Origin: an uncultured Chlorobiota bacterium
GTDB taxonomy: Bacteria > Bacteroidota > Ignavibacteria > UBA10030 > UBA6906
Assembly (NCBI GenBank): GCA_900696645.1
Contig: CAADGV010000007.1
Coordinates: 1-64,000 of the forward strand
Direction: 5' to 3'
DNA length: 64,000 nt
Shown here: positions 35,687 through 43,599 of the stretch, one piece after another
Layout of the letters: each line of letters starts with the position of its first letter
Position numbering within the stretch: the stretch's first letter is position 1
Notes under the pieces: generated by a model
What the model saw: the letters and a program-made list of their open reading frames with translations, nothing else
The model's database searches: none
What the model was told of the DNA's origin: nothing
Position numbers and translations under genes: made by a program

Positions 35687-37294
35687 TTATTCTTTCTCCT
35701 GCAACGTCTTGAACGGCAACTCGCTCAACTCAATTCCTTCATTCTTATCCAGAAAGTAATTCAACGCCCAGTCGCCGGGGAAGAGGATCGCAAGTTGTCC
35801 GTGTGAGTCCTCGGCAAGCGCAACATCGCTCGGAACCATCATTGACTTGATCTTCTCTTCCGGCGTTTCGGGAGAGAGCCACCGCAGAAATTTCCATTCT
35901 GTTTGCTCGATGCGCGACGGGGCGCCGTACTCACTCTCCAATCGATACTGCACAACTTCGAATTGCAGCGGCCCGACGGCAGCAAGTATCGGCACTCGGG
36001 CGCCCGAGTTAACCCGATAGAATACCTGAACAACTCCTTCCTGCGTCAGTTGATCGACGCCGTCGCGGAACTTCTTGTAATTTGCCGGACTCGGATTGTG
36101 CAGTATGACGAAATGCTCGGGAGGAAACCGCGGAATTTCATCGTACACAATCGTCGGGTCTTCCGTCAATGTGTCGCCGATGTGAAACTCGGATTGTCCG
36201 ATAAACCCTACGATATCGCCGGCATACGCCTCATCAACCGTTTCGCGTGACTGTCCAAACATTTTCTGGGAGTTCGCCAGCCGGACTTTTTTCGCTGTGC
36301 GGGCATGTGTAACATACATATCGCGCTCAAACTTTCCTGAACAGACCCTCAGAAACGCAATTCTGTCGCGATGCCGAGGGTCCATGTTTGCCTGAATCTT
36401 GAAGATAAATCCTGAAAACCGTTCGTCATCCGGTTGAATGAATTGTTCGCCCGAAACGTGCGGTGCCGGTGGGGCGGCGTGCTCCAAAAATCCGTCAAGT
36501 AGAAGTTGAACGCCGAAGTTGTTTTTTGCACTTCCGAAAAAGACGGGCGTGATCTTTCCGTTGAGCACGGCGCTTGAATTGTACGTCGATCCGGCGATAT
36601 CCAGCATTTCAATTTCTTCACGAAGTCGAGCATGCGTGTTGTCGCTCAGCTTGCCTTTCACACTCGGATCATTAAGTGAGGCAATAGCCTCCGGCGCACG
36701 GTACATCCCGCCGACGGTTCGTTCGTAGAAATGAACTTCTTTTGTTTGGCGATCATACACGCCGAGAAACTCATCGCCCGTGCCGAGCGGATAATTCATC
36801 GCAAAGGCGCCGATGCCGAGAACTTCTTCCAACTCGTCAATCAACGCCAGTGGGTCGAGCGTTGGCCGGTCGCATTTGTTCATGAATGTAAAGATGGGAA
36901 TGTGGCGACGGCGGCAGACTTCAAACAGCTTCTTCGTCTGGCTTTCAATACCTTTACCCGCGTCTATCACCATGATGACGCCGTCAACGGCAGTGAGCAC
37001 GCGATACGTATCCTCGGAGAAATCCTGGTGGCCCGGCGTATCGAGCAGGTTAATCCTGTATCCACTGTAATCGAATTGCAGCACGGTTGAGCTGATGGAA
37101 ATTCCCCGCTTTCGTTCCAACTCCATCCAATCGCTTGTGGTTTGCCGCTGCTGCTTTTTTGCAGTGACAGAACCGGCAAGTTGTACGGCGCCTCCGTAGA
37201 GAAGGAACTTCTCTGTAAGCGTGGTTTTGCCCGCGTCAGGATGGGAGATGATGGCGAACGTGCGGCGCTTTTGGATTTCTTCTTTGATGCCCAT
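35687..37294 (-). CDS. prfC: Peptide chain release factor 3
   Basis: 535-residue GTPase that recycles RF1/RF2 from the ribosome. GTP-binding motifs are SHPDAGKTTLTEK (G1), DTPGHQDFSEDT (G3) and NKCDR (G4). ERKRGISISS is the switch I region that separates RF3 from EF-G. Length is normal (about 530). The ATG at 37294 starts MGIKEEIQKRR; a longer in-frame start at 37435 runs through a repeat and is unlikely. Confidence 0.95.
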   Translation of the reverse strand: MGIKEEIQKRRTFAIISHPDAGKTTLTEKFLLYGGAVQLAGSVTAKKQQRQTTSDWMELERKRGISISSTVLQFDYSGYRINLLDTPGHQDFSEDTYRVLTAVDGVIMVIDAGKGIESQTKKLFEVCRRRHIPIFTFMNKCDRPTLDPLALIDELEEVLGIGAFAMNYPLGTGDEFLGVYDRQTKEVHFYERTVGGMYRAPEAIASLNDPSVKGKLSDNTHARLREEIEMLDIAGSTYNSSAVLNGKITPVFFGSAKNNFGVQLLLDGFLEHAAPPAPHVSGEQFIQPDDERFSGFIFKIQANMDPRHRDRIAFLRVCSGKFERDMYVTHARTAKKVRLANSQKMFGQSRETVDEAYAGDIVGFIGQSEFHIGDTLTEDPTIVYDEIPRFPPEHFVILHNPSPANYKKFRDGVDQLTQEGVVQVFYRVNSGARVPILAAVGPLQFEVVQYRLESEYGAPSRIEQTEWKFLRWLSPETPEEKIKSMMVPSDVALAEDSHGQLAILFPGDWALNYFLDKNEGIELSELPFKTLQEKE

Positions 37295-37327
37295 TGAGGA
37301 GTTCTTTAATCGAAAACAAAAAGAATT

Positions 37328-37396
37328 GCCACAAGGCGCAAAGACACGAAGGTTTTGCGAAGAAAAGAATTCTCTGTGTCTCGGTGACTCTGTGGC
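37328..37396. repeat. MITE-like element with CCACA/TGTGG ends upstream of prfC
   Basis: The segment starts GCCACAAGGCGCAAAGACAC and ends CTCGGTGACTCTGTGGC, so its ends are inverted (GCCACA/TGTGGC). Internal units (AAGACACGAAGG, TCTGTGTCTC) match the dispersed repeats elsewhere in the window. It contains no gene. Confidence 0.55.
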
Positions 37397-37468
37397 GGAC
37401 AAAATATACGGAAAAACGGTGGGGCGAACAAACAACCGGCATCATTTCCAGTGAATGGAGCGGTGCGG

Positions 37469-38848
37469 TTACGGAAGGTCGCGTTCGATGTTATGTTCTT
37501 TGATCTTATCGAACAGAGACCGTCGATTGATCTGGAGGATCTCCGCCGCCTTTGTTCGATTCCAGTTTACCTGACGCAAAGTTTTGAGAATGATCTCACG
37601 CTCGATATCTGCAAGGATTCTCTTGAGAGGGATGCCGCTCTGCCAGACCAGCTCCTTCGGGATCAGGTCTCCTTCAGCTTTGACTGTCAGAGGCAAATGG
37701 TCGAGCGTGATAACACTTCCGGTTGCAAGTACGAGGGCACGCTGAATGACATTCTCTAACTCGCGAATGTTGCCCGGCCACGAATAGCGCTGCAAAACGG
37801 CAAGGGATTCGGCGGAGATGAGAATCTTTCGATGGTTGCCGTACTTTGCTATGAAGTGTTCAACAAGTTCAGGAATATCCTCCGGTCGCTCCCGCAAGGG
37901 CGGTACGACGATAGGCATCACGTTGAGTCTGTAGTACAGGTCATCACGGAATCGCCCGGCTTTCATCTCCGCATCAAGATTCTTGTTCGTTGCAGCGATT
38001 ACCCGGACATCAACAGTAATGGTTTCTTTCCCGCCAACCCGCTCAAAGCTTCTTTGCTGCAGCACGCGCAAAAGTTTCGTCTGCAACTGTGGCGTCATGT
38101 CGCTGATTTCATCGAGAAAGATTGTGCCACCGTCTGCAAGTTCAAAGCGTCCCTTGCGCTCGGCGATAGCTCCTGTAAAGGCGCCGCGGGCATGGCCGAA
38201 GAGCTCACTCTCTAAGAGAGTCTCAGGGAGCGCTGCACAGTTGACTTTTACGAAGGGCTTGTCGCTGCGCCGGGAATGTCGCTGGATAGCATTGGCAATC
38301 AACTCCTTGCCGGTGCCGCTCTCTCCCTGAATCAGAACAGTTGCATCTGTAGGGGCCGCCTTTCCGATGAGTTTGAAAATATCCTGCATGCGCCCGCTGC
38401 CAGCAACCAGCTCCGCTGACGGGGAGACTGTTTCCCTTGGCTGAACTGCCCGTAATTCGTTCACCTCATTCAAAAGTGTGCTGTAGCCCAGTGCCCGCTT
38501 GACGACCAGCAGAAACTCATCAAGCTTGAAGGGTTTTTCGAGATAGTCGTATGCCCCGAGTTTCATTGCCTCGATCGCGCGCTCGCTTGTCCCGTGTGCT
38601 GTGAAGACGATGACGGGAACATCCGGCAGCAAGGCCTTTATTTCCTTCAGTGCCGAGAGACCATCCATTTTGGGGAGTTTGATATCCAGCAGAATGAGAT
38701 GCGGCCGCATTGTCTGTGCGTATTCAATTGCTGTAAGCCCGTCGGTGGCCTGCAGCAATCCATATCCCTCCTCGGAAAGAAGCTCCACGAGGTTCTTACG
38801 CATCGGAGCTTCATCGTCAACGATCAATATGGTTTTAAGGTTGTTCAT
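37469..38848 (-). CDS. Sigma-54-dependent response regulator, NtrC family
   Basis: 459-residue transcriptional activator. A receiver domain (about 5-120) has the phosphorylated Asp55 in LILLDIKLP. The AAA+ domain has the Walker A GESGTGKE, the sigma-54-contacting GAFTGA loop and the arginine-finger region. The C-terminal Fis-type HTH is RTKAAEILQINRRSLFDKI. It activates promoters read by sigma-54 RNA polymerase. The gene overlaps the histidine-kinase stop (ATGA), marking them as a cognate pair. The intergenic region upstream of the kinase contains sigma-54-like sites and dyads, its probable targets. Confidence 0.94.
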   Translation of the reverse strand: MNNLKTILIVDDEAPMRKNLVELLSEEGYGLLQATDGLTAIEYAQTMRPHLILLDIKLPKMDGLSALKEIKALLPDVPVIVFTAHGTSERAIEAMKLGAYDYLEKPFKLDEFLLVVKRALGYSTLLNEVNELRAVQPRETVSPSAELVAGSGRMQDIFKLIGKAAPTDATVLIQGESGTGKELIANAIQRHSRRSDKPFVKVNCAALPETLLESELFGHARGAFTGAIAERKGRFELADGGTIFLDEISDMTPQLQTKLLRVLQQRSFERVGGKETITVDVRVIAATNKNLDAEMKAGRFRDDLYYRLNVMPIVVPPLRERPEDIPELVEHFIAKYGNHRKILISAESLAVLQRYSWPGNIRELENVIQRALVLATGSVITLDHLPLTVKAEGDLIPKELVWQSGIPLKRILADIEREIILKTLRQVNWNRTKAAEILQINRRSLFDKIKEHNIERDLP

Positions 38849-40398
38849 GAATTCCGATGTGACACTCCGTTGGTAGCAGGAAGAGTTATCTGGCACAAGG
38901 AACCAACCTGTTGGGGAAAAATAAATCGAATGTCACCACGATGCGCTTGTACAATTTCATAAGCAATAGAAAGACCCAAACCGGCACCATGTTCTTTAGT
39001 TGTGAAGAACGGGTCGAATATCCGTTCCGCGATATCCGGCGATATCCCGGTTCCGGTATCTTGTATAGAAACAACAACTTCGTCATTCTTGGGGTGATAT
39101 TCAGTCCTGACTTGAAGTTCGCCCCCCTCTGTCATCGAATCCAGTGCATTTGTGCACACATTGAGCAGCACTTGTTCGATTCCCTCCGGGTCGAGTTGCA
39201 ATGGCGGAACACGGCTGTCAAAATGCGTCGAGATATCGACTTGAGATTCGTCGGCCCGGTCCTGAATCAGCTCCAATGCCTGAGACACTACCTGGTGGAG
39301 GTTGGAGGGTCGAAAGTGTGAAGACACAGGTTTGGAAAACACCAAGAGGCGTTTCACCAACTCCGAGAGCCTGTCGATCTCGCTGATCACCATGGTCATG
39401 GAGTCTTCAGTGACTATCTCAGCGGTAGCATGCGGGCCGTTTTTCAGACGGAGTTTGCGCTGCCACATTTCGATACGTGTTCGTATTGTGGCTAAGGGAG
39501 TTTTTACTTCGTGTGCGACACCTGCAACAAGGTTTCCCAAGGCCGCCATTTTTGCCCGCTGTTGAAGTTCTTGTTCGAGCTTTCGCTTTGTGCTCTGATC
39601 GGCAGCGCGGGCTTCGACCATTTCGTTGATAGCTCCTGTAATGGACCCGAGTACACCCCTTCGGGCGGGGAAACGGAATAAGTCGTCGCGCCGCAGAGTT
39701 TCCAGACCGACCTTGATTTCCTCCACCCGTTTTCGCAAGAGCCAAGAGACATATATTGCGACGAGGATTCCCAACAACGACGCGACTGCCACAATGTTCA
39801 GAGTGTTGGAAAGCCGTTGAAGGGGCAGCAGTGACTCCACCCTCATCATCGTCCACACCGCGCCCACAACTTCTCCCCGTGCAAAAATAGGTCTTGTGGC
39901 AAGAGGAAACGTGGTCTGGGGCAATTCGCTGACTGTCACCAACTCACATTGTTCGGCAACAGTTCTGATTACCTGATCATGAATCAGATTGAATTCCCGC
40001 GGTGGCGGGCCGTACACCGGTTGGGGATACTTCTCCGTCGGAAAAGCAAAGCCTGCGAAGAAGTCGCCGGAAGAAAAGAAGAACCCGCCCTCAATGCCGT
40101 TGAACATTAGCAAGTACTTCCTGGATATCTGTGACAGAGAAGAGTCGATCTCCCGATGTTCCTCAATCGTTAGTTTCGGAGCCCTATGCAACAGTGTTGC
40201 CCAGATGCTGTCAATCGTTGGCTGACCTGCGTTTGCGAGTTGCTGGGCCGCAAGTAGTGTATGTCTGCTGGTATTCCGAAGAATCTGTTCCTTTGACTTC
40301 TCCACGTTAAGGAGAGTGAATACCACAAAACCGACTACAATAACTGTGATCGAAATGCCCAAAAAGAGGGCTTTGGTGCGAAGACTCGGTTCTTTCAT
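38845..40398 (-). CDS. Membrane sensor histidine kinase
   Basis: 517-residue two-component sensor. Transmembrane helix 1 (about 10-30) and helix 2 (about 199-221) flank a 165-residue outer sensor region. A HAMP-like linker follows (about 222-270). The phosphorylated residue is His296 in GVAHEVKTPLATIRTR. The ATP-binding domain has NVCTNALDSM, DTGTGISP and GAGLGLSIAYEIV. It pairs with the adjacent sigma-54 activator. What it senses is unknown, but divergence from a secreted cytochrome gene suggests an electron-acceptor or redox cue. Confidence 0.93.
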   Translation of the reverse strand: MKEPSLRTKALFLGISITVIVVGFVVFTLLNVEKSKEQILRNTSRHTLLAAQQLANAGQPTIDSIWATLLHRAPKLTIEEHREIDSSLSQISRKYLLMFNGIEGGFFFSSGDFFAGFAFPTEKYPQPVYGPPPREFNLIHDQVIRTVAEQCELVTVSELPQTTFPLATRPIFARGEVVGAVWTMMRVESLLPLQRLSNTLNIVAVASLLGILVAIYVSWLLRKRVEEIKVGLETLRRDDLFRFPARRGVLGSITGAINEMVEARAADQSTKRKLEQELQQRAKMAALGNLVAGVAHEVKTPLATIRTRIEMWQRKLRLKNGPHATAEIVTEDSMTMVISEIDRLSELVKRLLVFSKPVSSHFRPSNLHQVVSQALELIQDRADESQVDISTHFDSRVPPLQLDPEGIEQVLLNVCTNALDSMTEGGELQVRTEYHPKNDEVVVSIQDTGTGISPDIAERIFDPFFTTKEHGAGLGLSIAYEIVQAHRGDIRFIFPQQVGSLCQITLPATNGVSHRNS

Positions 40399-40479
40399 TG
40401 AAAGTCATTCCCAGCGAGCAGTGGCATAAATGAATATAGCGATTCGTGCAAAGATATTCATCGCTGGCAATCAGGAAGG

Positions 40480-40494
40480 CCAAAAGTAGTGCCA
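40480..40494 (-). promoter_or_regulatory. Sigma-54-like promoter for the kinase/regulator operon
   Basis: On the minus strand: TGGCAC-N5-TTGG, matching the -24/-12 consensus TGGCAC-N5-TTGC except for the last base. It lies about 82 bp before the kinase ATG. The operon encodes a sigma-54 activator, so autoregulation is plausible. Confidence 0.4.
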
Positions 40495-40586
40495 CTACGT
40501 TTTCTCCCGTTTTTGTTGTCGGATACTTGGCTGTCGTCGGTCATGGGTGATGCTTGCTCGAACAGAATGGGCGACATCTGCCCACT

Positions 40587-40656
40587 GTTGAAGAATGCAA
40601 CGCCCTGTTGAGTGAATTTCAACATTTGGTGTGGCATAATTGTTGGGCTATTCAAC
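40587..40656. promoter_or_regulatory. Three GTTG-N7-CAAC dyads, probable activator sites
   Basis: Dyads with the same arms and 7-base spacing lie at 40587-40601, 40607-40623 (extended to GTTGA/TCAAC) and 40642-40656. The first two are offset by exactly 20 bp, about two helical turns. They sit in the divergent region between the sensor kinase operon and the cytochrome gene, and resemble upstream activator sites of a NtrC-type protein. Confidence 0.5.
40632..40646 (+). promoter_or_regulatory. Sigma-54-like promoter for the cytochrome gene
   Basis: TGGCAT-N5-TTGG, one base from the -24/-12 consensus at the last position and one in the first box. It lies 86 bp before the cytochrome ATG at 40732. 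The third dyad overlaps its -12 side, so it could also be repressed. Confidence 0.4.
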
Positions 40657-40731
40657 AGTGTTATCGGCGCAACGTGCATGTGTCGAAAGAATCTCAACCC
40701 ACTGGCACATCAAATTTCAAATGAGGTAGCT

Positions 40732-43599
40732 ATGACAAGAAGAATACTGTCCATCGCGGTGGTAGTCGCACTGTGCATCACTGCAATTGTACTTCACGGA
40801 GATACACAGGCTGTAACGGCACTAACCGTGAAGATAGAAAGAATGCATTTTGTAGGAACGATCAAGTCTCCGACAGTTGTTGCAGTCGTTCAAAACGACT
40901 CGGTGTACATCAAGGAACTTGAGTTGAAAGGAACCTGGAAGACTCCCGAAAGTGGTATCGCTCCTTTTCCGGCACAAGCGTATGCTTGGTTCAGAGATGT
41001 GGGTGACGATCACCCGCTACGCCAACTCAATTGGACGGGGGTGGTGCTTGATACAACCTGGATAAAATCCATCATCGCCCCGGACACCGGACGTTATGTT
41101 CTTGACAAGACCCTTAAAGCCGAGTATAAGAACAGTAAATGGACACTCTCGGGCGGGGCAGCCGCCAATGCGGGTTGGATGGATACGACAGGCCAATACT
41201 TCGTGGATGTGTATGTAGTGCGAAGCGCGGGCGGCGATTCGCTGTACAAGACACTGACGTTCCAAGGCGCCCCCGGCGGGACGAAGAATTTCACGGAAAC
41301 AGTTTTCGAGGTGAAGTACAAAGCCGACGGTCGCCGTCTTGGCGACACGCTTGCACCTTCACCTACATATCTTGTAAGCGGAGAGGCATCTGCAAAGATT
41401 CAATTCAAAAACGGAGCGGCAGTGCTCGCATTCCCGGTGTACGGCAACGCTGATAGTCTGCGATTCGTCTGGCGAAATGTTTCCGGCGCATTCTACACCG
41501 AAACTATCAACATTGACTTTCCGGCGGCAAACACTCTCGGGCTTGCTCCATCAGTTGAAGTCACGAACGTTCCCGGGGCGGGTTTCTTCGCTTCGGGTGA
41601 CACCATGAGTGTTGTCATTACCACTCGTAGCGATAGCGGTCTTGTGCTTGATTGGACAACGGCAGCACAATCTCTCGGAATCCAAAAGATCGAACTGATA
41701 TTCAGCGGCCCTAAGCGAGACTACATGCGGGCGATGCCACTGTACAACATCGTCAACAACTACGTCGTGCAGAAGTACCCGCGAGCGCCCTGGGCAGGTC
41801 GCGATTCCGGCGTTACCTTTACGAATCCTATCCGAGTGAAGGTGCCCGTTGATTCCATTGCCAAGTTCGGGACAGGCACGTACACTGTGTGGATTTCAGC
41901 CAAGCGTATATTCGGGGCAACTACCGAAAAGGCCGCTTCATTTGACGTTCAGATAGGGACAACTTCACGCGATTCTGTCCCTATGTCGTCGCGCATTGCC
42001 GGGCAATCCTGCGCAACATGCCACGGCCTCAACGGTCCGACAAAACACCACGGAGCACAGGGCGTTGAAGACTGCCTGCCGTGCCACACAGATAACATGA
42101 GCAAGCCGATGGTTGATCTGTACCATGTGAAACATTTTAAGAGCACCGCGTATCTACCCGGACAAGGCTTGTTCGCAGGGTGTACCCCTTGCCACCTGAA
42201 CAATTCCCACGACCGATTCACCAGTGATGCTAACAAAGTCTGCAAGCAATGCCACGTACAGGTGCCGTATTTCCCATCGGATCATGCTGCTTCGGTGCCT
42301 CTGTATGCTGAAACAGGCCTGTCGTGTGCAACTGCCAATTGCCACGTTGGTGGCGGGCTCGGTAATTTCCAAACCATTGCCATGACCCACGCAGCAATAG
42401 GTTCGAAATATGTCGGTGGCGGGTTCAACGCATACTATTCTGAGGATGCGCCCGTGATTGATGGTGTTATCGATCCTCTCTGGCAAACGGCTGATTCCAT
42501 AACAACCGTCAACGGAATCAAAATCAAAGCTCTGCACGATTCCACGAACGTGTATCTTCTGGCCCGCTGGGTTGATGGTCACAAGATGTACGGCGCAGAC
42601 TCTGCGGCTTCGAAGAGTGTCTATCGAAGGATCTGGAAATTCGACGGAACGAACTGGTCCAAATCGCAAGATGAAGACAGGCTCGGGATTGTTTGGCGGA
42701 TAGATGATTCCTTCGATGCATCATGTGCGCGTACCTGCCATAATGAAAAACCCGTACACGCAACAAACAACGGCAAGATGGATTTCTGGCATTGGAAGGC
42801 AACGCGTACGAACCCGGTTGGCTACTCTGATGACCAAGTGGCCACGCCTACCGGCAGGGTGAACGATGCGAAAATATCGGGTACCTTCGGGATAGATAAT
42901 CAGGATAGTGCCGGGACACTTCCACGGTTCATGAGGCCATCTGGCGCTCCTCCGTCCGATTTTCTCTTCATGAGTACAGCCATTCCGTTTGTCAACTCGG
43001 GCTGGTCTGCTGGCGACATGATTCCGGGCTACGTTGTGAACGATACTGCAGCAATTCCTGTGGTCGGCAGCCAAGGTGACATTAAAGCAAAAGGTGTGTT
43101 CTATCCGGCTACTGGCGAATGGGTCGTCGAATTTATGCGCGCCATGAATACCGGCAATGCGGACGACGCTCAATTCGTTGTCGGCCAAACTGCCACCTTC
43201 ACAGTCGCCAAGTTCAACAACACAGGCAGCGGTCACCCTGCCCAAGGATTCGATATCGGTATCTATCGTGTGACCTTTGAAGGAAGTACGACGGGAGTTA
43301 GTGGGAGCGGCGAAAAGCCTTTGGAGTTTGCTCTCAAACAGAATTATCCGAATCCGTTCAACCCTTCAACGAGCATAAGCTACGCCGTTCCACAGAAAGG
43401 GCTTGTCCGCCTCGAGATATTCAGTGTGACCGGACGCTTGGTGGCAACGATAGTTAACGAAGTAAAAGAAGCAGGTAGCTACTCCGCGAGTTGGCACGGT
43501 ATCGACCGCTCCGGATACCAAGTCGCCAGTGGCGTCTATGTGTACAGGTTGCAATCAGGGCCAAATGTAGCAGCAAGAAAAATGCTTCTCATCAAATAA
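40732..43599 (+). CDS. Secreted multihaem c-type cytochrome with EB_dh-like domain and T9SS sorting tail
   Basis: 955-residue exported protein. A signal peptide (MTRRILSIAVVVALCITAIVL) precedes about 400 residues of beta-rich repeats. A haem block follows: CATCH (about 426), CLPCH (448), CTPCH (484) and CKQCH (504). Two spaced variants come next, CATANCH (532) and CARTCH (665). Residues about 560-880 resemble the haem-binding domain of ethylbenzene-dehydrogenase-type gamma subunits (APVIDGVIDPLWQTAD). The end (NYPNPFNPSTSISY to KMLLIK) is a type A T9SS sorting domain, so the cytochrome should reach the cell surface. GAGG 7 bases before the ATG supports the start. Probably involved in extracellular electron transfer. 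Confidence 0.88.
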   Translation: MTRRILSIAVVVALCITAIVLHGDTQAVTALTVKIERMHFVGTIKSPTVVAVVQNDSVYIKELELKGTWKTPESGIAPFPAQAYAWFRDVGDDHPLRQLNWTGVVLDTTWIKSIIAPDTGRYVLDKTLKAEYKNSKWTLSGGAAANAGWMDTTGQYFVDVYVVRSAGGDSLYKTLTFQGAPGGTKNFTETVFEVKYKADGRRLGDTLAPSPTYLVSGEASAKIQFKNGAAVLAFPVYGNADSLRFVWRNVSGAFYTETINIDFPAANTLGLAPSVEVTNVPGAGFFASGDTMSVVITTRSDSGLVLDWTTAAQSLGIQKIELIFSGPKRDYMRAMPLYNIVNNYVVQKYPRAPWAGRDSGVTFTNPIRVKVPVDSIAKFGTGTYTVWISAKRIFGATTEKAASFDVQIGTTSRDSVPMSSRIAGQSCATCHGLNGPTKHHGAQGVEDCLPCHTDNMSKPMVDLYHVKHFKSTAYLPGQGLFAGCTPCHLNNSHDRFTSDANKVCKQCHVQVPYFPSDHAASVPLYAETGLSCATANCHVGGGLGNFQTIAMTHAAIGSKYVGGGFNAYYSEDAPVIDGVIDPLWQTADSITTVNGIKIKALHDSTNVYLLARWVDGHKMYGADSAASKSVYRRIWKFDGTNWSKSQDEDRLGIVWRIDDSFDASCARTCHNEKPVHATNNGKMDFWHWKATRTNPVGYSDDQVATPTGRVNDAKISGTFGIDNQDSAGTLPRFMRPSGAPPSDFLFMSTAIPFVNSGWSAGDMIPGYVVNDTAAIPVVGSQGDIKAKGVFYPATGEWVVEFMRAMNTGNADDAQFVVGQTATFTVAKFNNTGSGHPAQGFDIGIYRVTFEGSTTGVSGSGEKPLEFALKQNYPNPFNPSTSISYAVPQKGLVRLEIFSVTGRLVATIVNEVKEAGSYSASWHGIDRSGYQVASGVYVYRLQSGPNVAARKMLLIK

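Follow-up and report, generated by a model that had tools for sequence, protein, structure and literature searches.

A kinase-regulator operon and a divergent surface cytochrome gene probably share one pair of activator sites flanked by two sigma-54 promoters, in an arrangement whose spacing is nearly constant among relatives

In Escherichia coli, the NtrC-class regulator of ZraSR binds the spacer shared by zraP and zraSR and regulates both itself and its neighbour (PMC8249747), and RpoN holoenzyme binds the same spacer (PMC8743547). The locus described here is similar to zraP/zraSR in that a kinase-regulator operon, with the same gene order, faces away from the gene of an exported protein, but it differs in its target, which is a cytochrome and not ZraP. 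The locus was also considered as ZraSR itself and rejected, because both proteins fall below the curated cut-offs (ZraR 414.8 bits versus 760, ZraS 183.8 bits versus 479). Reportedly, going by the title of a 2011 study by Fievet, sigma-54 and a cognate regulator jointly control the two divergent ORP operons of Desulfovibrio vulgaris; the arrangement proposed here is similar, but the genes are different.

A further parallel is found in Desulfovibrio, where the sigma-54 activator gene DVU3142 is divergent from the ohc octaheme cytochrome operon, to which the account of this operon in PMC4641369 assigns a sigma-54 promoter and predicted activator sites. As far as that account goes, DVU3142 is grouped among the one-component activators, unlike the locus here, and DVU3142/ohc is described without a sensor kinase and without a paired promoter toward the regulator (PMC4641369), whereas the locus here has a kinase gene and a predicted promoter of that kind. 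What the two share, within the same account, is the gene of a sigma-54 activator that points away from the gene of a multiheme cytochrome. The circuit type is known already; the geometry at the present locus is unusually well conserved and nearly symmetric. For a lineage that has been studied little, the locus offers a sigma-54 circuit that can be put to the test, with exact predicted activator sites and two predicted starts, and with a surface multiheme cytochrome as its proposed output.

The whole stretch of DNA analysed, hereafter the window, is 64 kb long, and the genes of the circuit within it are the following.

37469..38896, minus strand: NtrC-class response regulator with receiver, sigma-54 AAA+ domain with GAFTGA, and Fis-type HTH (Pfam matches, GAFTGA)
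38845..40398, minus strand: membrane-bound sensor histidine kinase whose extracytoplasmic domain is PAS/Cache-like (Pfam HisKA and HATPase_c; predicted sensor fold)
40732..43599, plus strand: surface c-type cytochrome with four CxxCH, an EB_dh domain and a T9SS type A sorting tail

The regulator had been placed in the sigma-54 class on account of its GAFTGA by an initial annotation made from the DNA sequence, and the domains that we found bear this out. The genome has one rpoN gene (Sigma54_DBD match 3.1e-56) and 18 strong sigma-54 activator genes. The sensor region of the kinase has no Pfam match; its predicted fold (pLDDT 83, pTM 0.81) resembles PAS/Cache extracytoplasmic sensors, among them WalK and a chemoreceptor domain that binds formate, at a TM of about 0.5. 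The same sensor domain (39799-40311, minus strand) carries an EGGFY...FPT.P.P..GPPPR motif that is strongly conserved in all close relatives. The start codon of the cytochrome, ATG 40732, has GAGG ahead of it, and the T9SS type A sorting domain of this protein (TIGR04183) scores 31.7 bits, above the curated cut-off of 23. At the other end of the operon, a peptide release factor 3 gene (35687-37435, minus strand) shares the strand of the regulator, starts 33 bp 3' of it and may belong to the same transcript.

Sigma-54 promoters have GG at -24 and GC at -12 with N10 between, the consensus ending in TTGC. Two elements related to this consensus face away from each other in the spacer between the kinase and the cytochrome.

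40480..40494, minus strand: predicted kinase-facing sigma-54 promoter, TGGCACTACTTTTGG (conserved pair and spacing in relatives; predicted start near 40468)
40632..40646, plus strand: predicted cytochrome-facing sigma-54 promoter, TGGCATAATTGTTGG (conserved pair and spacing in relatives; predicted start near 40658)

Both had been described, as TGGCAC-N5-TTGG toward the kinase and TGGCAT-N5-TTGG toward the cytochrome, and both are present. They are the only matches to TGGCAY-N5-TTGS in the 64 kb, where 0.7 would be expected and 14 of 100 shuffles reach two. The GG at -24 and the N10 spacing are those of the consensus, while -12 reads GG, not GC. Genome-wide, the -24/-12 pattern shows no enrichment (38 matches versus 31 for the reversed control). 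Because both elements end in TTGG and the pattern is not enriched, the promoters are unconvincing by sequence alone, and we therefore preferred a comparison with relatives to evidence from a single genome.

Kinase orthologs with an adjacent regulator came from several families within the class; neither of the two genomes from the same genus yielded a match over the full length. The same divergent promoter pair recurs in 13 related kinase-regulator loci, in a test that was not blind, the promoter patterns having been loosened at -12 once the relatives had been inspected. Both promoters match the strict patterns in nine of the 14 spacers tested (the window included), at TGG-to-TGG distances of 138 (five times), 136, 148, 159 and 168 bp, and no strict divergent pair arose in 1000 shuffles of each spacer. 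Over the 14 loci, again with the window, the TGG-to-TGG distance is 136-138 bp in nine, and elsewhere mostly one to three helical turns longer. Where the top-scoring kinase-facing element was used, the distance is 151 bp at locus L189, 138 bp at L193, 137 bp at L195 and 176 bp at L098. L200, the one other locus whose target is the cytochrome, fits less well: CGG stands in both of its elements, and the kinase-facing one, which is weak, was chosen by its position at 137 bp. L202 has no recognisable promoter pair, and neither do the distant kinase homologs L203-L206, which have another sensor region. Collectively, conservation of the pair and its spacing across several families lends strong support to what had been proposed for the window, namely divergent sigma-54 promoters through which the activator would drive its own operon and the neighbouring gene.

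Thus the layout and its spacing change little from relative to relative, even when another gene takes the controlled position. The target is a cytochrome in the window and at L200 (57% identical). A comparison built mainly on cytochrome orthologs was set aside, because only two matches over most of the length turned up in 391 genomes; the L210 sequence begins 278 bp ahead of its cytochrome, and this locus was left out of the promoter comparison. In many other loci the target is an operon headed by a glutamate-racemase-like protein (TIGR00067, below cut-off), behind whose gene lies a repeat lipoprotein; an outer-membrane barrel is likely also encoded there, as a guess from sequence. Such a protein heads the target operon at L191, L193-L196, L198 and L199, in several cases with a signal-like N-terminus, and it may be an unusual exported relative of the cytoplasmic enzyme. 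At L189 a TonB-dependent receptor comes after the target, a secreted protein with a T9SS tail. Several targets are exported, which fits an envelope sensor. Since spacing stays near-constant while targets are exchanged, these loci amount to a natural experiment in which the promoter-pair geometry is kept and the output changed; the spacing comparison covers the window and its relatives.

Side-by-side reading of the spacers first revealed palindromes midway between the promoters, a pair that was missing from the initial annotation. A palindromic motif search by expectation-maximisation, trained on 11 relatives with the window left out, learned a 17-bp palindrome TG.GC-N7-GC.CA (TG.GC..A.T..GC.CA), of which each spacer carries two sites at a distance of about 24 bp. 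The training score was 91 for the real set, in which ten of the 11 pairs lie 21-25 bp apart, versus 25-33 for shuffled sets, which lacked a fixed spacing. At L098, which comes from another collection and stood outside the training, the pair forms the two best matches between both promoters, 35 bp apart. The motif then gave two candidate sites in the window.

40544..40560, no strand: candidate activator palindrome 1 (weaker), TGGGTGATGCTTGCTCG (second best motif match in the spacer, at -88, 24 bp from palindrome 2)
40568..40584, no strand: candidate activator palindrome 2, TGGGCGACATCTGCCCA (best match in the 64 kb, motif trained without the window)

The right-hand site is the top of 63,984 places scanned; the left-hand one, next best within the spacer, is imperfect, and 41 places in the 64 kb score equally high. 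On either side, the distance from palindrome to -24 element is near 48 bp (46-50 bp) in most loci, and otherwise mostly near 37, 59 or 69 bp. These steps are about one helical turn; common descent of the loci inflates the statistic for this periodicity. Measured from each of the two predicted starts, the centres of the palindromes are about 82-108 bp upstream, near the 100-150 bp at which a review places activator sites at sigma-54 promoters (PMC7057263). Furthermore, the HTH region of the regulator is also conserved among the relatives. TGRGC-N7-GCYCA occurs at 11 places in the whole genome, most of them within open frames, and the regulon therefore looks local. Activator sites common to two divergent sigma-54 promoters, as at zraP/zraSR, are thus indicated here by sequence and conservation, and the central palindromes are most likely these conserved sites.

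Very probably, then, the regulator binds the central palindrome pair and activates its own operon and the divergent cytochrome gene through the two sigma-54 promoters. In this model the sensor kinase would phosphorylate the NtrC-class regulator from the same operon, and regulator dimers would bind the two 17-bp palindromes midway between the promoters. By looping, the bound regulator would then activate both, leftward for its own operon and rightward for the surface cytochrome, so that autoregulation would be positive. We infer that the regulator is the palindrome-binding protein, and likewise the sigma-54 dependence of both promoters, the phosphorylation and the sign of regulation.

The two sides of the spacer differ at -12, where C is found in 12 of 15 kinase-facing versus two of 14 target-facing elements (Fisher 7e-4; 0.012 without three close relatives), a count biased by the first step of the kinase-side search, which admitted only C or G at this position; the asymmetry is for this reason a lead and not a result. 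It could mean that sigma-54 dependence is confined to the kinase side, the cytochrome-facing element being a decayed copy and the cytochrome using another kind of promoter. However, the -24 part, the TTG and the palindrome distance of the target-facing element are kept in nearly all relatives, with different targets, and because decay would not preserve such features we regard this explanation as highly improbable. It is conceivable, if rather unlikely, that the locus is a portable near-symmetric cassette, in which the kinase, the regulator and a two-faced, helically phased enhancer stay while the target is swapped, and in which the off-consensus -12 of the target promoter makes the two sides respond differently.

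Three dyads lie between the right-hand palindrome and the cytochrome start.

40586..40602, no strand: GTTG dyad 1, TGTTGAAGAATGCAACG (GTTG-N7-CAAC at 40587-40601; not conserved; no activator-motif match)
40606..40624, no strand: GTTG dyad 2, TGTTGAGTGAATTTCAACA, with an N9 spacer (dyad 40607-40623; not conserved)
40641..40657, no strand: GTTG dyad 3, TGTTGGGCTATTCAACA (GTTG-N7-CAAC at 40642-40656; covers the -12 element and reaches the predicted start; not conserved)

The initial annotation had described all three as GTTG-N7-CAAC, which holds for the first and third and not for the middle one; it was right that two of them begin 20 bp apart (40587 and 40607) and that the third overlaps the cytochrome promoter. 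The three lie within 71 bp, and the cluster is beyond chance, since three such dyads within 60 bp were seen in none of 300 simulated windows. This clustering and the overlap would suit a reading along the lines of that annotation, in which the regulator binds all three, two serving as enhancer and the third setting the level of the cytochrome promoter. Yet relatives keep the same regulator and promoters without the dyads, whose conservation had been proposed as a check; their scores against the conserved activator motif are -6 to -13, and dyads 1 and 2 are nearer to the cytochrome promoter than is usual for enhancer sites. Scoring as non-sites and absent from relatives, they have most likely been wrongly taken for the activator sites, and binding of the regulator to them is, in our view, highly improbable.

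The dyads may instead serve a second regulator. A tentative but quite possible reading keeps the conserved circuit and adds an unlinked protein, probably a repressor, that would act on the dyads and gate the cytochrome side here. It agrees with the central-palindrome circuit, it accommodates the clustering, and a repressor would act just where the dyads are, beside the cytochrome promoter and over it. Against it, there is no candidate protein, no further clustered copy was found among the fetched loci of the pattern, and the dyads are absent from L200, the other cytochrome locus. The dyads were rejected as a regulon, the remaining fetched copies of the CTGTTGA pattern all sitting in open frames of at least 100 codons, and within the sample they occur in this genome alone. 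There, the dyad patterns outnumber their reversed controls by about two to one, TGTTG-N7-CAACR having 102 copies, many of them in open frames, versus 48.
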